Shown here piece after piece: positions 50,198-63,903 of a stretch of DNA of 64,000 nt; within the stretch, counting starts at the first letter, position 1, and every line of letters begins with the position of its first letter. A program made the translations under genes and the position numbers. The notes beneath the pieces are model-generated. The model was not told the DNA's origin. It saw only the letters and a program-made list of their open reading frames with translations, and did not search any database. This stretch comes from Mitsuaria sp. PDC51. Its GTDB lineage: Bacteria > Pseudomonadota > Gammaproteobacteria > Burkholderiales > Burkholderiaceae_C. The DNA is taken from NCBI RefSeq assembly GCF_900113225.1, contig NZ_FOZE01000004.1, forward strand, positions 115,630 through 179,629. The letters are read 5' to 3'.

Positions 50198-52825
<2,628 letters not shown>

Positions 52826-52901
52826 CACACAAGCGGCGCAGACTCCGGGTGGCGGCGGTCATCGAACCGCCCGGCCCGGCGCGCTGACGAACCCTCTTCT
52901 T

Positions 52902-52924
52902 CAAGGGCCCCGGTCGGGCCCTTG
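52902..52924 (+). terminator. Terminator-like hairpin after alaS
   Basis: Stem CAAGGGCCC / GGGCCCTTG with a CGGTC loop and a following TCGTTT lies 77 bases past the alaS stop and 25 bases before the next ATG, near its SD. It may end alaS transcription. Confidence 0.6.
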
Positions 52925-52948
52925 TCGTTTCATGCAACTGGAGTAGCA

Positions 52949-53698
52949 ATGACTGACACCCCGATGGCCGACGAGTTCGGCGACTCGATTGACGTCGAGA
53001 ACGCGCAGCGCCTCGGCGAGCTGCTGGCCGTGCTGGCCGGCCAGGCTGATCCGGATGCCCCGGCGATCACGCTGGACACGCTGGATGGCTACCTGACCGC
53101 GCTGCGCGTCGGCCCTTCGGACGCCGCGCCGATCCAGGCGATGGACGCGCTGTTCGGCGAGGACTGGCCCGCCGGCCTGGACGAGGAGGACCTGACCGAC
53201 GCGTTCATGGAAGCGCTGCACGTGCGTTGGAACGAGATCGGCGACAGCCTCGAGCCGCAGCCGCTGCTGGAGGCGCCGGAGCAGATGCACCTGACGCCGC
53301 TGATTTCCGAATTCGATGAGGAAACCAAGGCCGAGTTGGTCGCGCAAGGCGCGATCACCGCCGAACTGCTGGAGCGCATGCCCGCGCCCGGCGCGATGTG
53401 GGCCCAGGGCTTCCTGCAGGCGGTCGAGGACACGCACGCCTGGACGCTGCCCGACGGCGACGGCGCCGACGACCTGCGGCTGATGCTGGAGGCGGTCGAG
53501 GCGGTGACGCTGGCGGCGGACTCGACGCCGCGCGCGGCCTACATCGAGAAGGCCTATGAAGAACCGGACGGCATCGACCAGAACGCGCTGATCGACGACA
53601 TGCTCTTCACCGTGCAGGACCTGCGCCTGTTCTGGATGCAGCAACGGGTGCTGAAGGATGCGATCTCCGGCCTGGCGGGCGACGACTCGACGCACTGA
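52949..53698 (+). CDS. YecA/UPF0149-family protein
   Basis: A 249-residue acidic protein of the YecA/UPF0149 family. The N-terminal TLDTLDGYLTALRVGP (helical UPF0149 motif) and GAMWAQGFLQAVED are the recognisable parts. No SEC-C zinc motif is present at the C-terminus. The function of the family is unknown. ATG 52949 has GGAG 5 bases upstream; nine residues of upstream frame are rejected. It follows alaS, with a hairpin between, and is itself followed by a terminator. Confidence 0.88.
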   Translation: MTDTPMADEFGDSIDVENAQRLGELLAVLAGQADPDAPAITLDTLDGYLTALRVGPSDAAPIQAMDALFGEDWPAGLDEEDLTDAFMEALHVRWNEIGDSLEPQPLLEAPEQMHLTPLISEFDEETKAELVAQGAITAELLERMPAPGAMWAQGFLQAVEDTHAWTLPDGDGADDLRLMLEAVEAVTLAADSTPRAAYIEKAYEEPDGIDQNALIDDMLFTVQDLRLFWMQQRVLKDAISGLAGDDSTH

Positions 53699-53727
53699 GC
53701 CTCACACGGACATCACACCGACCACCG

Positions 53728-53753
53728 AACGCCGGCCTCGCGCCGGCGTTGTT
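53728..53753 (+). terminator. Terminator after the YecA-family gene
   Basis: Stem AACGCCGGC / GCCGGCGTT with loop CTCGC, followed by GTTC, 29 bases after the stop codon. Confidence 0.6.
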
Positions 53754-53844
53754 CATGGTGCCGGCGGAGGGGCCTCGACGGCCTGGTTCGACCTCGGCCT
53801 GCCCGCGCGGTTCGTCCTTCCCAGGGCCCGGCGCGCCTTCAGCG

Positions 53845-54333
53845 TCAGAGCCGGCCCTTGCAATTCGGCGCGCCGCAGCGGCAACGCAATCGCCCCTCGT
53901 GATGGCTCTCGCCGTAATCGGCGCAGATCTCCTCGCCGGGCGCGATGTCGCGGATCGCGTAGAACTCGGCCCGTCCCTGCCGGATGCGCAGCACCGCGTT
54001 GGGCGCACAGCTGTGATTGACGTGGCGCAGCGCGCAGTCGGACTTCGTTGCGTCGATCGCCGTCTTGTCGGTCACCTCGACGACGTGGATGCGGCGTCGA
54101 CCCTCGATGCGCCGGCGGGCCTCGCGCACCGGCACGATTTCGCCGCGCATCTCGCCGATCTTGAGTCGCGCCGGGATCGGCTCGGCGGCGAACACGCCCA
54201 GGCCATCGATCGGGCTCTTGTCCACGGTGAGCGCAAAGCGCTCGGCCGGCTGCGGCTCGCCCTTGCGACGCGCCGGTGCCTCGGTGGCAACGGCAGCGGC
54301 GGGGACGGGAGCGACGGAACTCAGTCGAGGCAT
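53845..54333 (-). CDS. SET-domain protein methyltransferase-like protein
   Basis: A 162-residue protein with a short disordered N-terminus and a compact SET domain (about 32-162). It shows GLGVFAAEPI, the pseudoknot motif NHSCAPNA, GEEICADYGE with the catalytic-type Tyr, and a post-SET zinc cluster CRCGAPNCKG. These features imply S-adenosylmethionine-dependent lysine methylation; the target in bacteria is unknown. The start at ATG 54333 lacks a clear SD, so it may begin elsewhere. Converges on the YecA-family gene. Confidence 0.82.
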   Translation of the reverse strand: MPRLSSVAPVPAAAVATEAPARRKGEPQPAERFALTVDKSPIDGLGVFAAEPIPARLKIGEMRGEIVPVREARRRIEGRRRIHVVEVTDKTAIDATKSDCALRHVNHSCAPNAVLRIRQGRAEFYAIRDIAPGEEICADYGESHHEGRLRCRCGAPNCKGRL

Positions 54334-54426
54334 GAAGACGAGGCGCGGTCCTGGCCGCGGAGAATCGGGAAAGGCGCATTGTCGCGCCGTTGCCACTCGC
54401 CGCCGGGCGCCGCCGGAAGTTCGCGG

Positions 54427-54456
54427 TTGACGGCCGCGACGCACGTCCAAGATACT
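54427..54456 (+). promoter_or_regulatory. Sigma-70 promoter of the small Cys/His-rich ORF
   Basis: TTGACG (54427-54432) and GATACT (54451-54456) are separated by 18 bases, a good match to TTGACA-N17-TATAAT. The next ATG starts 8 bases after the -10, where transcription itself would begin. Confidence 0.55.
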
Positions 54457-54463
54457 GGCCCGC

Positions 54464-54568
54464 ATGTCCCTCGCGAACCGCACCGTCTTCGTCGTCCAGC
54501 CGTGCTGCATGTGCCTGATGCATGCGCACCTGTGCGCACGCCAGCCGGGGCAGCGTCGATCGCGGTAG
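54464..54568 (+). CDS. Possible leaderless 34-residue Cys/His-rich leader peptide
   Basis: The ORF is 34 codons long and includes PCCMCLMHAHLC: four Cys, two His and two Met within twelve residues. It begins at the predicted transcription start and has no SD, so it would be read as a leaderless mRNA. The TAG is followed 11 bases later by a GGATCC...GGATCC hairpin (54580-54612), then a strong terminator (54625-54655) before the GNAT gene. The layout is that of an attenuator or metal/cysteine-sensing leader peptide. I do not recognise the family, and coding is inferred from layout and composition only. Confidence 0.4.
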   Translation: MSLANRTVFVVQPCCMCLMHAHLCARQPGQRRSR

Positions 54569-54624
54569 ACCCTCCCCACGGATCCGGACCTCGACGTCCA
54601 CCCCCTGGATCCCCGACTCCCCCC

Positions 54625-54660
54625 GACAAGGCCCGCGTTACCCGCGGGCCTTGTCGCTTT
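54625..54660 (+). terminator. Strong terminator upstream of the GNAT gene
   Basis: A perfect 13-base stem (GACAAGGCCCGCG / CGCGGGCCTTGTC, 54625-54637 with 54643-54655) with loop TTACC is followed by GCTTT. It lies 36 bases before the GNAT start with no evident promoter between them. Confidence 0.75.
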
Positions 54661-54695
54661 CCGCCCTCGGTCCTTCACCCCACCAGGAGACCCCG

Positions 54696-55271
54696 ATGCA
54701 GACCCCGCCCCCTTCCCCCCGCGACCTCAGGATCGCCGACGGCCTGACGCTGAGGCGCCCGCGCGTCGAGGACGCTCGCGCCCATGCCGGGCTGATGGGC
54801 CATGCCGGCGTGCAACCCTGGTTGCTGCAGACGCCTTACCCCTCGGAACTGCAGTGGCAGGAGCGCTTCGGCAAGGCGCCCGACACCAGCAGCGGCGAAC
54901 TGGTGCTGCTGGCCTTCGATGGCGACCGCCTGGTGGGGTCCGCCGGCTTGCATCCGGTCGGTCCGCAGGCCCGCCGTCGTCACGCGATGATGCTCGGCAT
55001 CGGCGTGCATCCGGACGCGCACGGCCGCGGCGTCGGCTCGGCGCTGATGGACGCGCTGGTGCGTCACGCGGACGACTGGCTGGGCTTGCAACGCATCGAG
55101 TTGACCGTCTTCGTCGACAACCTGCGGGCGATCCGGTTGTACGAGCGCTTCGGCTTCGAGCACGAGGGGCGTCTGCGCGGTTTCGCGCTTCGCGAGGGTC
55201 GCTACGTCGATGCGTTCACGATGGCGCGCCTGCATCCGCGGCCGCCGGTGATGGAACGCTCCGAGGGATGA
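54696..55271 (+). CDS. GNAT-family N-acetyltransferase
   Basis: A 191-residue acetyltransferase. The GNAT core contains the acetyl-CoA loop GVHPDAHGRGVGSALMDALV (Q/RxxGxG/A-type) and a C-terminal ELTVFVDNLRAIRLYERFGF followed by EGRLRGFALREGRYVDAFTM, as in RimJ/PhnO-like and YhhY-like enzymes. The substrate is unknown. AGGAGA lies 6 bases before the ATG. A strong terminator just upstream suggests its expression depends on read-through. Confidence 0.9.
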   Translation: MQTPPPSPRDLRIADGLTLRRPRVEDARAHAGLMGHAGVQPWLLQTPYPSELQWQERFGKAPDTSSGELVLLAFDGDRLVGSAGLHPVGPQARRRHAMMLGIGVHPDAHGRGVGSALMDALVRHADDWLGLQRIELTVFVDNLRAIRLYERFGFEHEGRLRGFALREGRYVDAFTMARLHPRPPVMERSEG

Positions 55272-55333
55272 AATCAGGCGGCGCCACGCGGCGCCGCTTG
55301 TCCGGGCCGGCCCGGGGCGCGCGCCCTGTGCGA

Positions 55334-55639
55334 TCAGTCCATCGAGACGAGCGCGCCTTCGGCGCTGCGCCGCTGGGTTTGCGCATGCAAGTCACCGTCG
55401 GAGGCGCGGCCTTGCGGTTGGGAGGAGCTGTCGGTGCTGCGGTCGGGAACCGCGGGCTGGGGGGCTGGCGGACGGCTGGGCTGCCGCTTGCCGGTGATCA
55501 GCAGGCGAGCCAGCTTGACGACCTCGCTGGCCTGCGCTGGAGCGGCGGGCAGGAGCAAGGCAACGCCCAGCAGGGCGGCCCCCAGCAGGGCCAGAGGATG
55601 CCGGTGGGCGGTCTGCGCTTGTCGTTGTCGGCTCTGCAT
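55334..55639 (-). CDS. Small secreted protein of unknown function
   Basis: A 101-residue protein with a signal peptide (hydrophobic LALLGAALLGVALLLPAAP, cleavage near AQASE). The mature part is rich in Pro, Ser and Gln (KRQPSRPPAPQPAVPDRSTD). I do not recognise a family. It lies 126 bases beyond the pbpC stop on the same strand and converges on the GNAT gene. The clear signal peptide supports coding; the mature part is low complexity. Confidence 0.6.
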   Translation of the reverse strand: MQSRQRQAQTAHRHPLALLGAALLGVALLLPAAPAQASEVVKLARLLITGKRQPSRPPAPQPAVPDRSTDSSSQPQGRASDGDLHAQTQRRSAEGALVSMD

Positions 55640-55765
55640 GGTCTCCCCGCGCGAATCTGGATCTTGGCGTCGATGGTGGAGTATCGAAAGTCAGCCCCCT
55701 CGCCGCTAGAGGCTGGCGACGAATTGCGCCCTGGAGCGGCTGACTTGCGGTCAGGCGGGATGGGT

Positions 55766-57994
55766 TCACCCCGGCGAGGAGGCGCCGGCACCGGCCTGCG
55801 GCGCCCCGCGGCGCGTGGGTGCTCGCAGCCCCGCACCGCGCACCTCGAACCGGACTTGCTGCAGCACATGCCCGCGGTTGTCCAGCAGCGCGAGTTCATG
55901 ACGCCCCGGCATCGGCAGCCAGTCCAGCGTTGCCCCCTGGCCAATGACGCGACCATCGAGGCGCCATCTGGCCGTCGCGCCGCGTTCGAGCCGCCCCTCA
56001 TGGGCGAAACGAAGCCGCTGCGCTGCCGGCGGGATGTCCGGATCCAGGGCGTAGATTGCCCCGTCGGCGGGATTGCTGAGCGCGACGGCCGTGCCGGCGG
56101 ACTGGATCACCGCCTGTTCGGTCCCGGCGATGAACCACTCCCGTCGCGGCGGCTCCTGCGCGCTGTCGAATCGCGTCTGCCGAGCGACCACCCCGCGGGG
56201 GGGATCGACCGACTCGGGCAACCGTCCCGCGTGCAAGGCCAGCATCACCTCGCGCCAGACCGGCGCGGCGCCGCTCACACCGGAGACCTGCTGCATCGCC
56301 TCCCCGCTGGAGTTGCCGACCCACACGCCCACGGTGTAGCGGCTGGTCCAGCCGACGCACCAGTTGTCCCGCATGTCCTTGCTGGTACCCGTCTTGACCG
56401 ACGCCGGGAATGGCAAGGCCAGCGCGCTGGACAGGCCGAAGGTGAGCGCCCGCGCGTTGTTGTCCGCCAGCACGTCGCCGACGATGAAGCTGGCCTTGGG
56501 GTCCGCGACCTGACGGGACGATGCGCGCTTGCCGCCCGCCGCCCGCTGCCCGCCCGGCAGCGCCGCGTCGGCATACCTGCCGCCGTTGGCCAGCGCTCGG
56601 TAGGCGTTGGTCAGCCCCAGCAAGGTGACATCCGCGCTGCCTAAGGCCAGCGAGGGACCGTAAAAGCCGCCCGTCTCAGGCAAGCGCAGCCCGAGGGCAT
56701 TGAGACGTTCGAAAACCGCCTCCGGCGTGAGCATCAGCGACAGCCGCACCGCCGGGATGTTGAGGCTGCTGCCCAGCGAAGCCCGCGCGCTGACCCAGCC
56801 GCGGTACTGCTTGTCGTAGTTCTGCGGCAGATAGAGTCCAGCCGCCGTCGCGATCTGGGCCGGTGAGTCGTCCAGCAGGCTCGCCGCCGTGATCAGGCGG
56901 CGCTCGATCGCCAGTTCATAGAGGAAGGGCTTGAGCGTCGAGCCGGGCTGCCGCCGGGCCAGCACATGATCCACCTGCGCCGACTCCGACAACTGGCTGC
57001 CGCTGGAGCCGACCCAGACCCGGACTTCGCCGCTGGCGTTGTCGAGCACGAGGACCGCGCCATCCTCGACCTGTCGACCGGACAGTTCCGCCAGATGCCG
57101 CCGCAGCGACTGGACGGCGACCCGCTGCCAGGTGGCGTCCAGCGTGCTGCGCTGCGCCGCGGGTCCGCCCGGCTGGAGCGCGAGGCGGGCGAAATGCGGC
57201 GCCCACTGCGGTGCGTCGGCCACCGTCAGCACCTTGCGACGCAGGACCGCCCCCACTTCGTCCACGAGGCCATCGCAGCTCTGACGCATCGCCTGCAGCA
57301 CGCCGCAAGCCCGCGCGCTGATCGTCTCCACCGGCGAATTCGGCCCCCGCAGCATCGCGGCGAGCATCGCTGACTCTCGCGCGTCAAGTCCGCTCGCCCG
57401 CTTGCCGAAAAGCGCTTGCGCGGCGGCCGGCACCCCGACCAGTTCGCCGCGCAAGGGCACGCGGTTCAGATAAGCCTCGAGGATCTGCGCCTTGGTCCAC
57501 TGGGTCTCCAGGCGACTGGCCACCCACGCCTGCCCCAGCTTCTGCCGGAAACTGCGGCCCCCCCGGCGCGCCAGATCCTCGTCGAGCAGACCCGCGAGTT
57601 GCATCGTCACCGTCGAGGCCCCACGCGTACGCGTGTTCCATAGGTTCGCCCAGGCGCTGGAGGCGACTGCCGACCAGTCGACGCCGCTGTGCTCGTAAAA
57701 GCGCTGATCCTCGGACAACAGCATGGCCCGCAACAGCGACGGCGACATGTGCTCGACCGTCACCCAGGCGAGGACGCGACGTTTCGGATCCAAGCGGACC
57801 GTCTGCAGGACCTCGCCGCGTCGGTCCAGCAACTGGAAGTCCGACACCGGATGCGAGGCGCGCGTCTGCGCGAAGGTGGGCAGCGTCTGGGCGCAGGCGC
57901 CCCCCAACAGCCCCACCAAGCCGGCGACAAACACAGCGCCCCGCTTCGCCGCTCGTGCAAAGCGGGCGCGCAAGCAGTCGCCGGCCCCCTTCAA
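55766..57994 (-). CDS. pbpC: Penicillin-binding protein 1C
   Basis: A 742-residue bifunctional class A PBP. Its N-terminal anchor is near residues 20-36. The glycosyltransferase domain has catalytic Glu95 in SEDQRFYEHSGVDW and STVTMQLAGLL. The transpeptidase domain has Ser352 (GSTLKP, SxxK), SLN (410-412) and KTGTS (534-538). A C-terminal BiPBP_C domain (about 640-725) completes the PBP1C plan. The start is TTG 57994, not ATG: GGAGGT is 6 bases upstream and it overlaps the alpha-2-macroglobulin stop (TTGA). The two are known partners in envelope repair. Confidence 0.95.
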   Translation of the reverse strand: MKGAGDCLRARFARAAKRGAVFVAGLVGLLGGACAQTLPTFAQTRASHPVSDFQLLDRRGEVLQTVRLDPKRRVLAWVTVEHMSPSLLRAMLLSEDQRFYEHSGVDWSAVASSAWANLWNTRTRGASTVTMQLAGLLDEDLARRGGRSFRQKLGQAWVASRLETQWTKAQILEAYLNRVPLRGELVGVPAAAQALFGKRASGLDARESAMLAAMLRGPNSPVETISARACGVLQAMRQSCDGLVDEVGAVLRRKVLTVADAPQWAPHFARLALQPGGPAAQRSTLDATWQRVAVQSLRRHLAELSGRQVEDGAVLVLDNASGEVRVWVGSSGSQLSESAQVDHVLARRQPGSTLKPFLYELAIERRLITAASLLDDSPAQIATAAGLYLPQNYDKQYRGWVSARASLGSSLNIPAVRLSLMLTPEAVFERLNALGLRLPETGGFYGPSLALGSADVTLLGLTNAYRALANGGRYADAALPGGQRAAGGKRASSRQVADPKASFIVGDVLADNNARALTFGLSSALALPFPASVKTGTSKDMRDNWCVGWTSRYTVGVWVGNSSGEAMQQVSGVSGAAPVWREVMLALHAGRLPESVDPPRGVVARQTRFDSAQEPPRREWFIAGTEQAVIQSAGTAVALSNPADGAIYALDPDIPPAAQRLRFAHEGRLERGATARWRLDGRVIGQGATLDWLPMPGRHELALLDNRGHVLQQVRFEVRGAGLRAPTRRGAPQAGAGASSPG

Positions 57995-60900
57995 GGCGCC
58001 ACCTCCAAGGTGGCGTTGGGCAGCTCGCCGAACCGGTCGGGCGAGTACATCGCTTCGGCGCGTGTGGTCGGCATCTGGAAGTGCCCGGCATTGTTCAGGC
58101 GCACCGTGTAGGTCAGCACATGTCGACCGCGCGGCAGATAGCCGAAGTAGGCTCGCCAGGCGGTGAAGCTGCGCTCGATGAAATCGGGCCAGGCCTCACC
58201 CTCGGCGCGTTCTCCCTGGCTGTCGATCGTGCCCTCGAGAACGGCGGCGCCGGTCGGCAACGGATCGCTCAACACCACCCAGGACATGTCGGCCGCCGCC
58301 TCGACCTCGAGCCGCACTCGCATCACGTCGCCACGCGACCAACGCGGCGCCGCCTTCTGAGACACCGCCGTGACGGTCCGCTTCACGGTGTATCCCGAGT
58401 TCAGCGGCGCTTTCAAGGGAACGGCCGACAAGGCCTGGATCGTGGCCCAGGGCTTGCCCTCGCCCGACTGCTGGACCGACAAGGTGGCCTCGCCCGAAGC
58501 GGGCCAGGGCAGACGCAGTTCGCCGCCACCGGGCTTGCCTGTCCAGTCCAGCGTCGCGGAAGCGGTGGCGAGCTTGGCCTCGGTTCGCCCCTTCACCGCC
58601 TGCGATTCGAAGCGAGCGGAGAATTTTTCCAATGCGAGGGCCCCCCAGAGGTTCGCGGTCGTATTGAACCAGGCCCCTCGTTCCTGACGAGCGAGCGCGC
58701 CGACGACCAGCCGCGGCAGGTCCTCCTTCCATGCCGGATCGTCGACCAGCGCGAGGATCGCGCGCGCCGCCGTGGCGTCACCGCTGCCCATCAGCCACCA
58801 GGCATCACCCCCTTCGTTGACGAAACGCAACGTGGTTCCCGCGAAGCTCAAGCGGCTTCGCAACTGGTTCTGCGCCGCGGCGATCTGGGCAGCGCGGTCC
58901 GGCGCCGAGGCCATCCTCTGATGCAGCACCAACCAATCGATGACGGCGCTGGTGGGCCAGTTCGGCAGGTTGCGGCCGTCCACCGTCCCCAGCTGCCGCA
59001 CCGTCGCCTTGTCGTGGCGCGCCAGCGCGGCCAGGGCGGCAATGCGCCGCGGTTCCTCGTCGGGCCGAGGCGACCAATGCCCACGTTCGATGCGCCCCTC
59101 CACGAAGGCGGCCAGGCCGTCGAGCGCCTTGGTGAGCTGCGTCGTAGGCAGGGCGCGCCCCGACTCCTGCGCGGCGGCCAGCAGATGGGCCGTCAGGACG
59201 TCGCTCCCCTGGGTGAGATGGCGCGACAGCGGGAAGTAGGCAAAGAGCCCATCGCTGTCCTGGTAGCTGGACAGCTGTCCCATCAGCCCCGCCCATGCGG
59301 CGTCGTCGTGCAAGGCGATGAATCGCGAACTCTGCTGCTCAAGGCAGGTGAACGGGTATTGCTCGAAGTAGCGCCTGACGCCGGGCAGCGCGCTCGACAG
59401 CCGAGGCTGAAGCCCGATCTGCAGTCCGCCACGTTTGACGCCCTGCGCCGGCAAGGCGTCGGCCGGAGCGGCGACGGGAAGGCTGAGCGGACCATCGAGT
59501 TGACGCAGTGTCGCCTGGAGCACCCGCAAGGGCACCGCCGCCTGGACGGCTTGCGTCGTCCGCATGGCGTCCTTGGCTCGCGCACCGCCCTGTTCCTCGG
59601 CTTGCGCTTCCCAGACGATGCGCTGCGCGCCTTCGGGGATCACGATGTCCCAACCTACTTCCTGCGCAGCGCCCGCCGCCAACTTCACGAGGCGTGCTTC
59701 CGTCGGCACCGGTTGCTCCCCGGCCTCCAGGCTGGCCTGCCCCTTGAGACTCACGCGCAAGTCCATTGCGCGCTGCGTCGCGTTGCGCACCGTGACCATG
59801 GCCTGGACGCGATCGCCTTCGCGCACGAGCGGCGGCAGGCCGGAGAGCAGTTGGAGGTCCTGGCTCACGTTGATGCTGCCCTCCCCCGTGCCAAAACGCT
59901 GCCCGGGCGCGTCCGCGACGGCAACCAGCCGAAAGCGCGTCAGCGAGTCGTTCAGCGTCACCTGGACGAGGGCTTCGCCCTGCGCGTTCAGCTTGACCAC
60001 CGGCTGCCAGGCCAACAGCGTGTCGAAGAGTTCCCGCGTGGCGAAGCCGCCTCCACCACCGGCCGCCACCGCTTTCCGCCCGTAATGGCGCCGACCGATG
60101 ATCTCGCTGTGCGCGGTCGCTGTCGTCACCCCCCAGGCGCGGCTCTGGATCATGCCTTCCAGCAGCTTCCAGCTCGGGTTCGGTGCCAAGGCCAGCAGGC
60201 CTTCGTCGACCGCCGCGAAAGCGATCTGCGCGTCGGGGACCGGCTTGCCATCCTGCGTGACCCGAAGCTTCACCTGGGCACTCTGGCGAACCCCATACTG
60301 GGGTTGCTGAGGCACCACCTCGACCTGCAGGCGATGCTTGGCCTGCCCGATCTCGATGGCCGCCATGCCGAACTTGAAGGAGGGTTTGGACAGGTCGACC
60401 ATGGCCGTCGGCGGCTGGTAATCGCCGGAGGCCCGCCACTCACGCCACCAGTTGACCGGCTCGCGCCATCCCCAGGAGAAGAACGAATACCAGGGCACGT
60501 CACGCAAACGCCCCCGAAGGACCATCACGCCGACGTAGGCGTTCGGCGTCCAATTGCGGTCGATCTTCAAATCCAGCCAGGGATCACGCCCGGAGAGCCG
60601 CCGCACCTCGCTGTGGAGCACCCCTTCGCGTTCAACGGTGATCAGCGCGGTCGCCTCCCGGTAAGGCATGCGCACCTGGAAGCGGGCCGTCTCGCCCGGC
60701 TCATAGCGACGGCGTTCCGGGATCACGTCGATGCGGTCGTCGTTGTCCTGGGCGAACCACAGTTCACCGGCTCGCGTCACCCACAACGAGCGAGCGGCGC
60801 GCGCAGTGCGGCCACCCTCGTCCGCCGCCGAACCGAGCAGTTCGACCTGACCGCCCTGGTTCAGCTTGATTTCGCAGCGCATCAGTCCCATGGCGTCGGT

Positions 60901-63747
60901 CTTGCCGTTGCAGAGCTCTCCCAGGTCCTTCAGCTGGCGCTGATGCTCGTAGGCGTAGAAGCCTCCCACCAGACGCTTGCGCGTGCTCAGCGTCTGGATC
61001 TGACGCGCGCCCACGCTGATCTTCTGATTGGCGAGCGGCTTGCCGTTCGTGTCCAGCGCCACCGCCTGGATCTGCAAGGGCTGTCCGTTGGCGACCCAGC
61101 TCGGTGCGCGCAGGCCCACGACCACGTTCGCCGGCCACACGACTTGCGAAGCCGCACGCGTGTGCGTCTGGCCATCGGGATCCCGGTAGTTCAGCTCCAC
61201 GCGCAGCTCGGATGGCCGGTCCACGGTGCCCTTCAGCGGCACCTTGAACTGGATCCCGCCTTTCGCGTCGGTCTGCAAGGCGAGCTTGTCGAGCAGCAAC
61301 CGGCTCGTGCCGGCCGGACCGCCTGGAGCTTCGTCATCACCCGGGTCGCTTTCGCTCCCGCTGTCCGGCCCCTGCGCGGAGGGAGGATCGAACACGAAGT
61401 CCTCGAATCCTGGAAACTGGGCCCATCGAGCTTGCAACAGCGCACTCACCTCGGTCGCCGCCTTGGCCATCGGACCACCGGCCATGAAGTTCAATTGCGC
61501 CGCCCAGGATTGCTCCTGCGCACCGGGGGCAGGAGACTTCGGTGGAATCAGTCGCGCATCGACCAGCGGCACGCGGAACTCTTCCACCTTCACGCCGCCG
61601 CTGTCCCAACTCCGCGGTCCCGACGTTTCGCCGCTGCGCTCCATCACGAAGCGATAGCGTCCCAGCTTCGCGTCCGCGGGGACCTTCCAGGAACTCACGG
61701 CGTAGCGTGCCCCCTCCCAGCGCAGGTCCAGCGAGGCGACATCCTCGCCCGTCCCTTCGAACTGGATCCTCAGCCTGTTTGGCAGTTGATCCGCAGAAGG
61801 GTCGGAGAGACCCTGGACCGTCTCCAGACGGAAGAAATGCTTCATTGAGACCGTCTCACCGGCCCGCAGGAGAGGCCGATCGGTCACCGTATGCGCCCGT
61901 GCGGCGCGTTCAGAACCCCAGGCGACGGGCACGTTGAAACGCCACGGCTCGATGCCACGACTCCAACCGCTGAACATGAAGGCCATGTCCTGCGGCTTAC
62001 CAGGCTGATCAAGCCGCGCCGTGATGAAGAGCCCCGACTCGGCAATGCACTCGCCACGCCCTCGATCCGCATCGAGGTTGGGGCGATCGATGCTTGCAAG
62101 TCCTCGCGCGTCGGTCCGCCCCGTCCACAGGGACTTGCCCCGACAGTCATACACCGACACCTGCGCCGATTCGACCGGACGACCTCCATCGAGCGAGGTC
62201 ACCCAGACGAGGCTATCGTCTTTTCCCAGCTTGAAGTGCAGACCGAGATTGGTGACCAGGGTTCCGGTCCGGACGAACATCGGCTGAACGGGGTCGAGCA
62301 GCGATTGTCCGAGCTTCGGCGACTTCAGCTCGAGCACGTGATAGCCCGGTTGCGACAGCGGAATGCCGATCACGTCGATCGCCTTGTCCGGATTCGGTGG
62401 CGGTACCGTCATCGACTGCAGATCCGCCGCGCCCTTCAACCATTCGGACTTGCGGTCTTCCCATTCGTTCTGCTTGTGCAGCCGACCGTACCAACGAAGG
62501 ATGTCAACGTCGTCGCTGATGCGCTTGATGCGTAGATGTCCGCCAGAACGCGGTTGCAGATCCGCTTGCACGTGCCGCATGCTCAGGGGCACGAGGCTGG
62601 GGCCCTTGAATTCCCACTCCACGATGCCAAAAGGTGCCGCCGCGAACTTGGCCAAGGGAGGCGCGGCGGCGGTCCGGATCTTCATCGGAAAACTCGCAGC
62701 GTTCGAGAGCGTTCGGCCACTCTCGTCCTTGATGCCAGGAGGGAGCTCCAGGACATAGTCCTGCTGTTCGGCCAGTGGCGCAGGAAAGCGCAACGAGGAC
62801 AACGCGTTCGTCGAATCCTGATCCTGATCTGTCGGCAGAACCGGCGACAGGCTGACACCGCCTGGGCCCTTCAGCCTCACCTTGAGCGCTTGCTCTCTGA
62901 CGATCGGCTCAGAGAAGGACACCGACAGGGGACGCACCGGTAGGCACGGCGCATTCGCGCGCTCACGTTCACAAGAGAAGTCCGCCGTCAGGGGAGGACG
63001 CACGGAGAAGTGCAACCGCCGCTCCCCACGTGTACGTACCGCCGCGTTGGATGCGCCAGTAATCCCGGGCCCCCAAACGAGACTGGCATCCGCGCCTGCT
63101 GGCAGCGGTCGTTTGCATGCAACAAGAATCCAGATCTCGCTGTCGGTATGCCGCTGCCCGACGGTTCGAAGTGCTGCATCGCGCTCCGCATTCGGCCGCA
63201 GCTCCACGGGAATGCGCTCACCAAGTGCCTTCGATTCGCACCACATGTTGGGCGCGACCGTGTCCAAGCGCGGCGTTCCGGACAGTTGGAGCAGGAAACG
63301 CTGATCCTCCTCGATGCGCCCGCCTTCCCATGGCCTCACCTGTCGCACGGTTGGCGCGCTCAGCTGGAACATGAACTGTTGAGCGCCGGACCAGCCCGGT
63401 GTCGCTCCGCGCGCGGTGGGGCGGAAATCGGCGCGCGCGGTGACAACGCACTTCGCGCCGGCGGCCAATGGACGGGAGAAGTCGAAGATCCACTCGCGCT
63501 CGTTAGTCCATCGACCTGTGCCGGCGACGTCGATGCCGTCGCACCGCAGCTCGACAGGACTAGGCAATCGGGGATCTCCGATACGTGCGACCTCAGCCTT
63601 GAAACGAACGACAACGTTCTGAACCGTAGCGATTTCTCCTTGAGGAGAAACGGACGCAATTTCGGCCGCGTTACAGGACGCGCCGATCGAAAACAATGCC
63701 AGTAGCGCCAGCTGCAAAAAGCTCGCTGTCTTTCGTGCTCGATACAC
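57991..63747 (-). CDS. Bacterial alpha-2-macroglobulin (YfhM-like) with thioester
   Basis: A roughly 1918-residue periplasmic protease trap. MG domains fill the first 1000 residues, then the bait region and A2M domain (about 1180-1300, ATRELFDTLLAWQP). The thioester motif TCLEQ with Cys1468 comes next, then the TED helical domain and C-terminal receptor-like domain. The annotated ATG at 63831 is less likely than GTG 63747, which has GAGGAG 5-6 bases upstream and starts directly at a signal peptide (FLQLALLALFSIGASCN). The Cys is not in a canonical lipobox, so lipidation is uncertain. The stop overlaps the pbpC start. Confidence 0.92.
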   Translation of the reverse strand: MYRARKTASFLQLALLALFSIGASCNAAEIASVSPQGEIATVQNVVVRFKAEVARIGDPRLPSPVELRCDGIDVAGTGRWTNEREWIFDFSRPLAAGAKCVVTARADFRPTARGATPGWSGAQQFMFQLSAPTVRQVRPWEGGRIEEDQRFLLQLSGTPRLDTVAPNMWCESKALGERIPVELRPNAERDAALRTVGQRHTDSEIWILVACKRPLPAGADASLVWGPGITGASNAAVRTRGERRLHFSVRPPLTADFSCERERANAPCLPVRPLSVSFSEPIVREQALKVRLKGPGGVSLSPVLPTDQDQDSTNALSSLRFPAPLAEQQDYVLELPPGIKDESGRTLSNAASFPMKIRTAAAPPLAKFAAAPFGIVEWEFKGPSLVPLSMRHVQADLQPRSGGHLRIKRISDDVDILRWYGRLHKQNEWEDRKSEWLKGAADLQSMTVPPPNPDKAIDVIGIPLSQPGYHVLELKSPKLGQSLLDPVQPMFVRTGTLVTNLGLHFKLGKDDSLVWVTSLDGGRPVESAQVSVYDCRGKSLWTGRTDARGLASIDRPNLDADRGRGECIAESGLFITARLDQPGKPQDMAFMFSGWSRGIEPWRFNVPVAWGSERAARAHTVTDRPLLRAGETVSMKHFFRLETVQGLSDPSADQLPNRLRIQFEGTGEDVASLDLRWEGARYAVSSWKVPADAKLGRYRFVMERSGETSGPRSWDSGGVKVEEFRVPLVDARLIPPKSPAPGAQEQSWAAQLNFMAGGPMAKAATEVSALLQARWAQFPGFEDFVFDPPSAQGPDSGSESDPGDDEAPGGPAGTSRLLLDKLALQTDAKGGIQFKVPLKGTVDRPSELRVELNYRDPDGQTHTRAASQVVWPANVVVGLRAPSWVANGQPLQIQAVALDTNGKPLANQKISVGARQIQTLSTRKRLVGGFYAYEHQRQLKDLGELCNGKTDAMGLMRCEIKLNQGGQVELLGSAADEGGRTARAARSLWVTRAGELWFAQDNDDRIDVIPERRRYEPGETARFQVRMPYREATALITVEREGVLHSEVRRLSGRDPWLDLKIDRNWTPNAYVGVMVLRGRLRDVPWYSFFSWGWREPVNWWREWRASGDYQPPTAMVDLSKPSFKFGMAAIEIGQAKHRLQVEVVPQQPQYGVRQSAQVKLRVTQDGKPVPDAQIAFAAVDEGLLALAPNPSWKLLEGMIQSRAWGVTTATAHSEIIGRRHYGRKAVAAGGGGGFATRELFDTLLAWQPVVKLNAQGEALVQVTLNDSLTRFRLVAVADAPGQRFGTGEGSINVSQDLQLLSGLPPLVREGDRVQAMVTVRNATQRAMDLRVSLKGQASLEAGEQPVPTEARLVKLAAGAAQEVGWDIVIPEGAQRIVWEAQAEEQGGARAKDAMRTTQAVQAAVPLRVLQATLRQLDGPLSLPVAAPADALPAQGVKRGGLQIGLQPRLSSALPGVRRYFEQYPFTCLEQQSSRFIALHDDAAWAGLMGQLSSYQDSDGLFAYFPLSRHLTQGSDVLTAHLLAAAQESGRALPTTQLTKALDGLAAFVEGRIERGHWSPRPDEEPRRIAALAALARHDKATVRQLGTVDGRNLPNWPTSAVIDWLVLHQRMASAPDRAAQIAAAQNQLRSRLSFAGTTLRFVNEGGDAWWLMGSGDATAARAILALVDDPAWKEDLPRLVVGALARQERGAWFNTTANLWGALALEKFSARFESQAVKGRTEAKLATASATLDWTGKPGGGELRLPWPASGEATLSVQQSGEGKPWATIQALSAVPLKAPLNSGYTVKRTVTAVSQKAAPRWSRGDVMRVRLEVEAAADMSWVVLSDPLPTGAAVLEGTIDSQGERAEGEAWPDFIERSFTAWRAYFGYLPRGRHVLTYTVRLNNAGHFQMPTTRAEAMYSPDRFGELPNATLEVAP

Positions 63748-63903
63748 ACTCGCTCCTCGGAATCCCGGACGAGCAAGCAGTCTATTTCGCGCAAGACTGA
63801 AAACACAGCCCCACAAAAGGGGCCATCGCATCCCCCGAAAGTCGGCCGGGTGTTCAGCGCATCATTGACGATCGGAGAGATGCCGGAGAGCGGCATCCCA
63901 AAT

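Follow-up and report, generated by a model that had tools for sequence, protein, structure and literature searches.

The window analysed here is a stretch of 64,000 nucleotides from Mitsuaria sp. PDC51. It contains a gene for a GNAT acetyltransferase that is preceded by a promoter-like sequence, a short open reading frame and several predicted hairpins (Table 1). The original prediction had described a promoter TTGACG-N18-GATACT aimed at the ATG of a 34-codon ORF, followed by a GGATCC hairpin, a terminator with a 13-base stem and a GNAT gene with its own Shine-Dalgarno sequence. Promoter and ORF are read in this arrangement at 54427-54568, and the order of the elements behind them was confirmed by the sequence together with the predicted fold. 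The predicted terminator hairpin likewise stands, but its stem comprises 14 bp and not 13.

Table 1. Features of the leader region and adjoining genes, with positions in the window
Feature	Position	Strand	Remarks
Divergent SET-domain gene	53845..54333	-	also upstream in 29/48 leader loci
Predicted promoter TTGACG-18-GATACT	54427..54456	+	-35 TTGACG 54427-54432, 18-nt spacer, -10 GATACT 54451-54456
Leader ORF, 34 codons, predicted leaderless, MSLANRTVFVVQPCCMCLMHAHLCARQPGQRRSR	54464..54568	+	ATG 54464; TAG stop 54566-54568
Predicted stop-codon hairpin H2	54552..54573	+	loop 54558-54567 contains CGCGG; window copy with one C-C mismatch
Putative antiterminator element CGCGG	54561..54565	+	complement of terminator 5' arm CCGCG
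Hairpin H3, GGATCC...GGATCC and inner GGAC/GTCC	54580..54612	+	GGATCC copies at 54580 and 54607; pairing from predicted fold
Intrinsic-terminator-like hairpin, stem CGACAAGGCCCGCG/CGCGGGCCTTGTCG	54624..54656	+	14 bp, loop TTACC, poor U-tract CTTTCCG
Shine-Dalgarno-like AGGAG of GNAT gene	54685..54689	+	
GNAT acetyltransferase gene, 191 aa	54696..55271	+	ATG 54696; nearest solved relative PA1377 (2vi7)

At 50198-55271 of the window, alaS, a UPF0149 gene, the divergent SET gene and the GNAT gene lie close together, a neighbourhood that recurs at related loci. Between the SET gene and the leader promoter (54334-54426), GCATTGTCGC or a near match to it recurs in relatives as judged by eye. Further downstream, on the minus strand of 55766-63831, lie two long ORFs which we take to resemble penicillin-binding protein 1C and an alpha-2-macroglobulin-like protein.

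A promoter scan of both strands of 53500-56000 returned the leader promoter as the sole sigma-70-like match (0.1 expected). No such promoter was found 3' of the terminator in this region, in line with the earlier statement that the GNAT gene has no visible promoter of its own. The pattern TTGAC-N20-ATACT-N5-8-ATG occurs a single time in the 5.85-Mb genome, at the leader, and the reversed-pattern control gave 0 occurrences. The ATG is situated 7 nt 3' of the -10 box, and the leader mRNA is predicted to be leaderless with its start at this ATG. The fold of the 197-nt leader is better than that of 200/200 dinucleotide shuffles (z -3.3); hairpin H2 is absent from the minimum-energy fold of the window leader, and the sequence of H3 is variable among relatives. 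The mini-ORF has no NCBIfam or Pfam match.

Conservation was assessed within a same-genus set of 16 genomes, here called Roseateles, whose members also bear the names Mitsuaria and Pelomonas and include a Rubrivivax MAG. At E<=1e-40 the GNAT gene is present in 15 of the 16, the window's own genome included, and the closest named GNAT, from Roseateles chitinivorans, is 95% identical to that of the window. The full layout of promoter, open ORF, stop element and terminator is found at all 15 loci, each with the ATG 7 nt 3' of the -10 box. The leader ORF stays open between the corresponding start and stop codons in 15/15 orthologs at lengths of 32-115 codons, and the peptides vary in length and sequence. 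In the closest species pair, 6 base differences in the ORF are nonsynonymous and 1 is synonymous, as compared to 13 and 43, respectively, in the GNAT gene; a GNAT comparison of L005 with L006, being out of register, is not included. Thus, with a divergent peptide in a frame that is kept, translation of the leader ORF rather than its peptide seems to be the conserved feature, while the last leader codons look conserved as RNA. One same-genus leader (L011) has an ORF of 115 codons with Gln/His/Met-rich repeats and yet an identical stop element at its end. Every element of the layout is, taken singly, common in GC-rich DNA, and the mini-ORF might be a chance ORF between the promoter region of the SET gene and the GNAT gene. 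A frame that is kept in 15/15 orthologs and a promoter-to-ATG pattern unique in the genome argue against this, and we regard it as hardly credible.

A covariance model of the hairpin plus the terminator (R1) was built from the 15 same-genus sequences and searched against 399 family genomes. Scores of 68-113 bits were obtained for the window's genome and for four others of the same genus; among the matches listed, all others reached at most 41. Most of the 24 non-genus matches inspected by eye (L063 and L064 were empty) resemble ordinary terminators 3' of genes, one (L065) is the leader of a GNAT ortholog, and by their coordinates eight more weak matches lie just upstream of a GNAT gene (G075, G101, G177, G212, G264, G296, G329 and G388). 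Leaders were therefore sought via the GNAT gene instead, which is present at E<=1e-25 in 99 of the 399 genomes; six of these (G123, G371, G146, G318, G122, G074) and the weak GNAT matches L020-L030 were left out. Among the 183 loci examined, 159 are distinct, of which 48 show the leader layout, 35 have GNAT at most 250 nt behind alaS without a leader, and 76 show neither; the layout search requires a terminator and a promoter-like match, and leaders among these 76 may be missed. The mini-ORF that the original prediction had proposed to look for upstream of GNAT genes in relatives is seen in many of them. The script yielded 59 leaders; one ORF (L110) was replaced by hand and two leaders (L016, L134) were added by hand, and the resulting 61 entries were reduced by identical peptide to 48, of which 45 come from the script and 3 from hand work. 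These are not independent, as 15/48 stem from one genus, and 27 representatives, one chosen per lineage but including three same-genus leaders, were used in addition. Within 1.5 kb upstream, a SET gene lies at 29/48 leader loci, a UPF0149 gene at 34/48 and the end of alaS at 10/48.

In the 45 distinct script-placed leaders, the spacer is 18 nt long in 41 (script range 17-19), a TTGAC -35 box is present in 43, CATACT or GATACT serves as -10 box in 39, and the gap between -10 box and ATG is 6 or 7 nt in 43 (script range 4-9). The terminator hairpin is present in the window and at 15/15 same-genus loci, its presence being a search condition in the wider set beyond the genus. The 12 inner pairs of the stem are preserved in 15/15 same-genus sequences, 10 of them without change. 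A terminator scan of 53500-56000 gave no match and so missed the leader hairpin; this result and the poor U-tract of the window copy are points against an attenuator.

In same-genus leaders the predicted hairpin H2 carries the stop codon in or at its loop. This loop has an unchanged CGCGGTA in 15/15 sequences, and the stem shows the compensatory variants GGCGTC/GACGCC, GGAAGG/CCTTCC and GGTGTC/GACACC around it. The covariation score of 0.364, as compared to 0.162 in shuffles, was reached by 0/500 of these (15 sequences). Double-sided changes at 4/8 pairs are not outstanding (2.9 in shuffles, 109/500 reach), nor is the number of further pair types above that of shuffles (6 vs 6.6, 452/500). Over the 27 lineage representatives, enclosing hairpins have a mean z of 0.78 (p 0.001), with the H2 score below that of the leader's own shuffles in 8/27.

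The element at the stop and the 5' arm of the terminator differ between lineages in a matched manner. CGCGG faces a CCGCG arm in Roseateles, CAGCGG a CCGCTG arm in L076, L088 and L090, GCGGGCG a CGCCCGC arm in L091 and L124, and GGCGGGCTTT a GAAGCCCGCT arm in L200. In 32/48 leaders, where about 12 would be expected, the terminator arm has its best complement at most 20 nt from the stop; in 16/48 it is elsewhere. For the 27 representatives, the element fits its own arm better than a swapped one (Wilcoxon p 4.6e-4; 0/2000 permutations reach the fit), and the fit exceeds that of mononucleotide-shuffled windows (z 1.6, p 1.1e-5) and of upstream windows (z 1.5, p 5e-4). Taken singly, only 9/48 leaders have a shuffle fraction <=0.05 in whole-leader shuffles, and in the window copy no more than 5 bp can form between element and arm, a score equalled in 84% of such shuffles. 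Alternative antiterminator pairing is thus supported by co-variation for the leader class, and in the window copy, taken alone, it is weak. The short match in Roseateles makes a loop-arm pseudoknot possible there, and the element may act in this form.

The behaviour of the leader RNA was also modelled. In folds of 19 nascent leaders without a ribosome, the pairing probability between arm and stop region was >=0.89 in five (L090, L124, L134, L200, L207) and <=0.02 in four, including the window leader (L001). In co-transcriptional folding, a ribosome placed at the control codon gave an arm pairing of 0.63 and one placed at the stop 0.28, an order that holds in 46/48 leaders. With a shuffled stop window arm pairing still amounted to 0.56 as compared to 0.63 (p 0.03), so that part of the rise is simply due to more free RNA. 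Co-transcriptional folding therefore favours an attenuator only modestly.

Under either reading the locus is predicted to give a terminated transcript of about 200 nt, and this could be a free-standing sRNA, or a dual-function sRNA and leader peptide, with the GNAT gene reached only by leaky read-through. The invariant loop of the Roseateles hairpin would suit such an RNA, and we count in its favour that rnTrpL of Sinorhizobium is an sRNA by-product of an attenuator (PMC7298713). However, the element follows the terminator arm of its own locus between lineages, which would be needless for an sRNA seed, and no sigma-70-like promoter is seen 3' of the terminator. The position of the leaders is no evidence here, since they were sought almost exclusively ahead of GNAT genes. 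Altogether we consider this explanation improbable.

Furthermore, the codons of the leader ORFs were examined for a possible signal. The original prediction had emphasized the Cys/His-rich character of the mini-ORF, and the peptide might accordingly sense copper, zinc or cysteine. A CxxC or CCxC motif is indeed present in the window and three other leaders (4/48), and TGC is enriched overall (64 vs 9.1 expected). However, TGC is found 136 times in one other frame, as would be expected if hairpin sequence and not codon choice were the cause, and in the window the Cys/His run overlaps TGCAT/ATGCA inverted repeats in the DNA. The 48 distinct peptides contain no Cys in 8 cases, one in 20, two in 12, three in 4 and four in 4, so that 28/48 have at most one, and the excess of nonsynonymous differences in the closest species pair also speaks against this. 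As the Cys/His residues are not conserved among the 48 leaders, metal or cysteine sensing was rejected on the basis of the peptide comparison, and we rate it as very unlikely. What stands out instead is the leucine codon CTA.

CTA occurs 42 times in 1986 leader codons, where about 1.5 would be expected from GNAT-gene usage (a background of only 16 codons in the case of L016). It is found in 36/48 leaders and 20/27 representatives. The counts per frame are 42/6/1 without and 42/6/10 with the stop codon, the 42 being in frame. CTA is located at a median of 24 codons ahead of the stop, with 25/42 at 20-28 codons. Among Roseateles leaders 11/15 contain it; the window copy, with CTG at the position of the CTA in its sister L002, is CTA-free, as are 11 other distinct leaders (12/48). 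CGG is mildly enriched (69 vs 43.9) and CCN is not (122 vs 130.3).

An independent check is provided by a 2-isopropylmalate synthase gene (leuA) of the same genome, which matches TIGR00970 above the cut-off. Its leader (L237; G000:C6, upstream of 1044544) contains the ORF MTFVSASTSQAFGLSLLLLAEPRVR with CTA CTA CTA, is predicted to be leaderless with the ATG 8 nt 3' of the -10 box, and has a terminator-like hairpin behind the ORF. With a script that used a looser promoter pattern and preferred candidate ORFs with CTA, leuA leaders with 2-3 CTA and a distance of 8-9 nt from -10 box to ATG were found at 16/16 same-genus loci. Upstream of ilvB, no CTA-bearing ORF of 12-60 codons was found within 420 nt. 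CTA is presumed, on this basis, to act in the genus as the control codon for leucine. In E. coli, leuL contains four CUA codons, and pausing at these in m1G37 deficiency lowers termination (PMC8384417). That the present leader senses m1G37-tRNA is speculation. For the leader class as a whole, we see even chances that leucine-tRNA is the signal. For the window copy the chances are lower, as with CTG in place of CTA its response may be weaker or come from other codons.

The closest solved relative of the GNAT protein is PA1377 (2vi7), which a profile of 15 sequences matches at E 1.2e-49; no paper on PA1377 as an acetyltransferase was found among the titles and abstract starts listed from the open-access literature. 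Among the best 25 of 40 profile matches no NCBIfam cut-off is reached, the best being PRK10140 with 108 of 236 bits, and there is no leucine link among the family matches. Acetyltransferases of antibiotics and analogues are among the same best 25 of 40, none of them near its cut-off. The leader might sense ribosome-targeting antibiotics or generally slow translation instead of leucine, with the GNAT protein as a detoxifying enzyme. A non-conserved peptide and the 12/48 leaders that retain the layout without CTA would agree with this, whereas the in-frame enrichment of CTA and the design shared with the leuA leaders point to leucine; we find this alternative possible but rather unlikely. That the GNAT gene follows alaS or lies close to it is no more than a hint at its substrate.

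Overall, we propose that the locus is a ribosome-dependent transcription attenuator of the GNAT gene, with a probability of roughly 80%. Promoter-ATG spacing, open frame and predicted terminator hairpin are seen in the sequence comparison, as is the co-variation of element and arm across lineages. From the promoter 7 nt ahead of the ATG, a transcript would arise on which the short leader ORF is translated. On reaching the end of the ORF, a ribosome would mask the stop element, so that the terminator could form and GNAT expression would remain low. A ribosome stalled within the ORF would leave the element free, termination would be blocked, and read-through into GNAT would follow. In most relatives the cause of the stall could be the rare Leu codon CTA with slow or uncharged tRNA-Leu UAG, a step that is less certain. 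Of the translation- or metal-dependent leader suggested originally, the translation-dependent part is supported by the conserved layout and the tracking of arm by element; the metal and Cys/His part finds no support in the peptide comparison.

A bolder proposal, which we hold to be doubtful, is that the leaders form a widespread undescribed attenuator class of Burkholderiales, in which an antiterminator displayed in a loop over the stop codon is erased by the terminating ribosome and the avoided codon CTA senses charging or modification of tRNA-Leu(UAG). If true, an alaS-linked GNAT, possibly acetylating aminoacyl compounds or tRNA, would be under translation-stress control. Attenuator logic apparently guards a GNAT gene that at many of the examined loci adjoins alaS or lies close to it, which should be helpful as a regulatory clue to the role of the enzyme, perhaps one needed when leucine or translation becomes limiting. 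The leader set, with its co-varying element and terminator and its marked rare codon, could also become a new RNA family.

The original prediction had found no match to a known leader, and indeed Rfam 15 gave none at 54300-54760 up to E 1, with only a tRNA reaching gathering thresholds in the window; nor was a paper on this leader found among the titles and abstract starts listed from the open-access literature. Attenuators of such design are established for amino-acid operons. Among leader ORFs identified by comparative genomics, the candidate motif uORFC-8-2 of Rhodobacterales has a similar attenuation logic and differs in its Cys codons and its target cysS (PMC8632094); in the main text of this source, no word starts with acetyltransferase, GNAT, Burkholderi or Betaproteobacteria. 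Leader mRNA of Sinorhizobium meliloti (rnTrpL/peTrpL) is leaderless with its 5' end at the ATG (PMC7298713), and differs in its Trp codons, its target trpE and its origin in alphaproteobacteria. The locus is not filed as a leucine-operon attenuator, because the control codon is missing from the window copy and the target has no role in leucine synthesis that would be recognisable from its family matches. That the target is a GNAT and not an amino-acid biosynthesis gene counts against a leu-type attenuator. Further differences from the leu and trp type are a single CTA (two in a few leaders, none in the window) in place of a run, a CTA mostly 20-28 codons ahead of the stop as compared to fewer than 10 in the leuA leaders, and an antiterminator that is often situated in a predicted hairpin loop. 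With leuL and trpL of E. coli and the same-genus leuA leader, the GNAT leader shares the promoter, the short ORF, a terminator-like hairpin and a stop element that would pair with the 5' arm, and, in most members of the leader class, a putative rare control codon.
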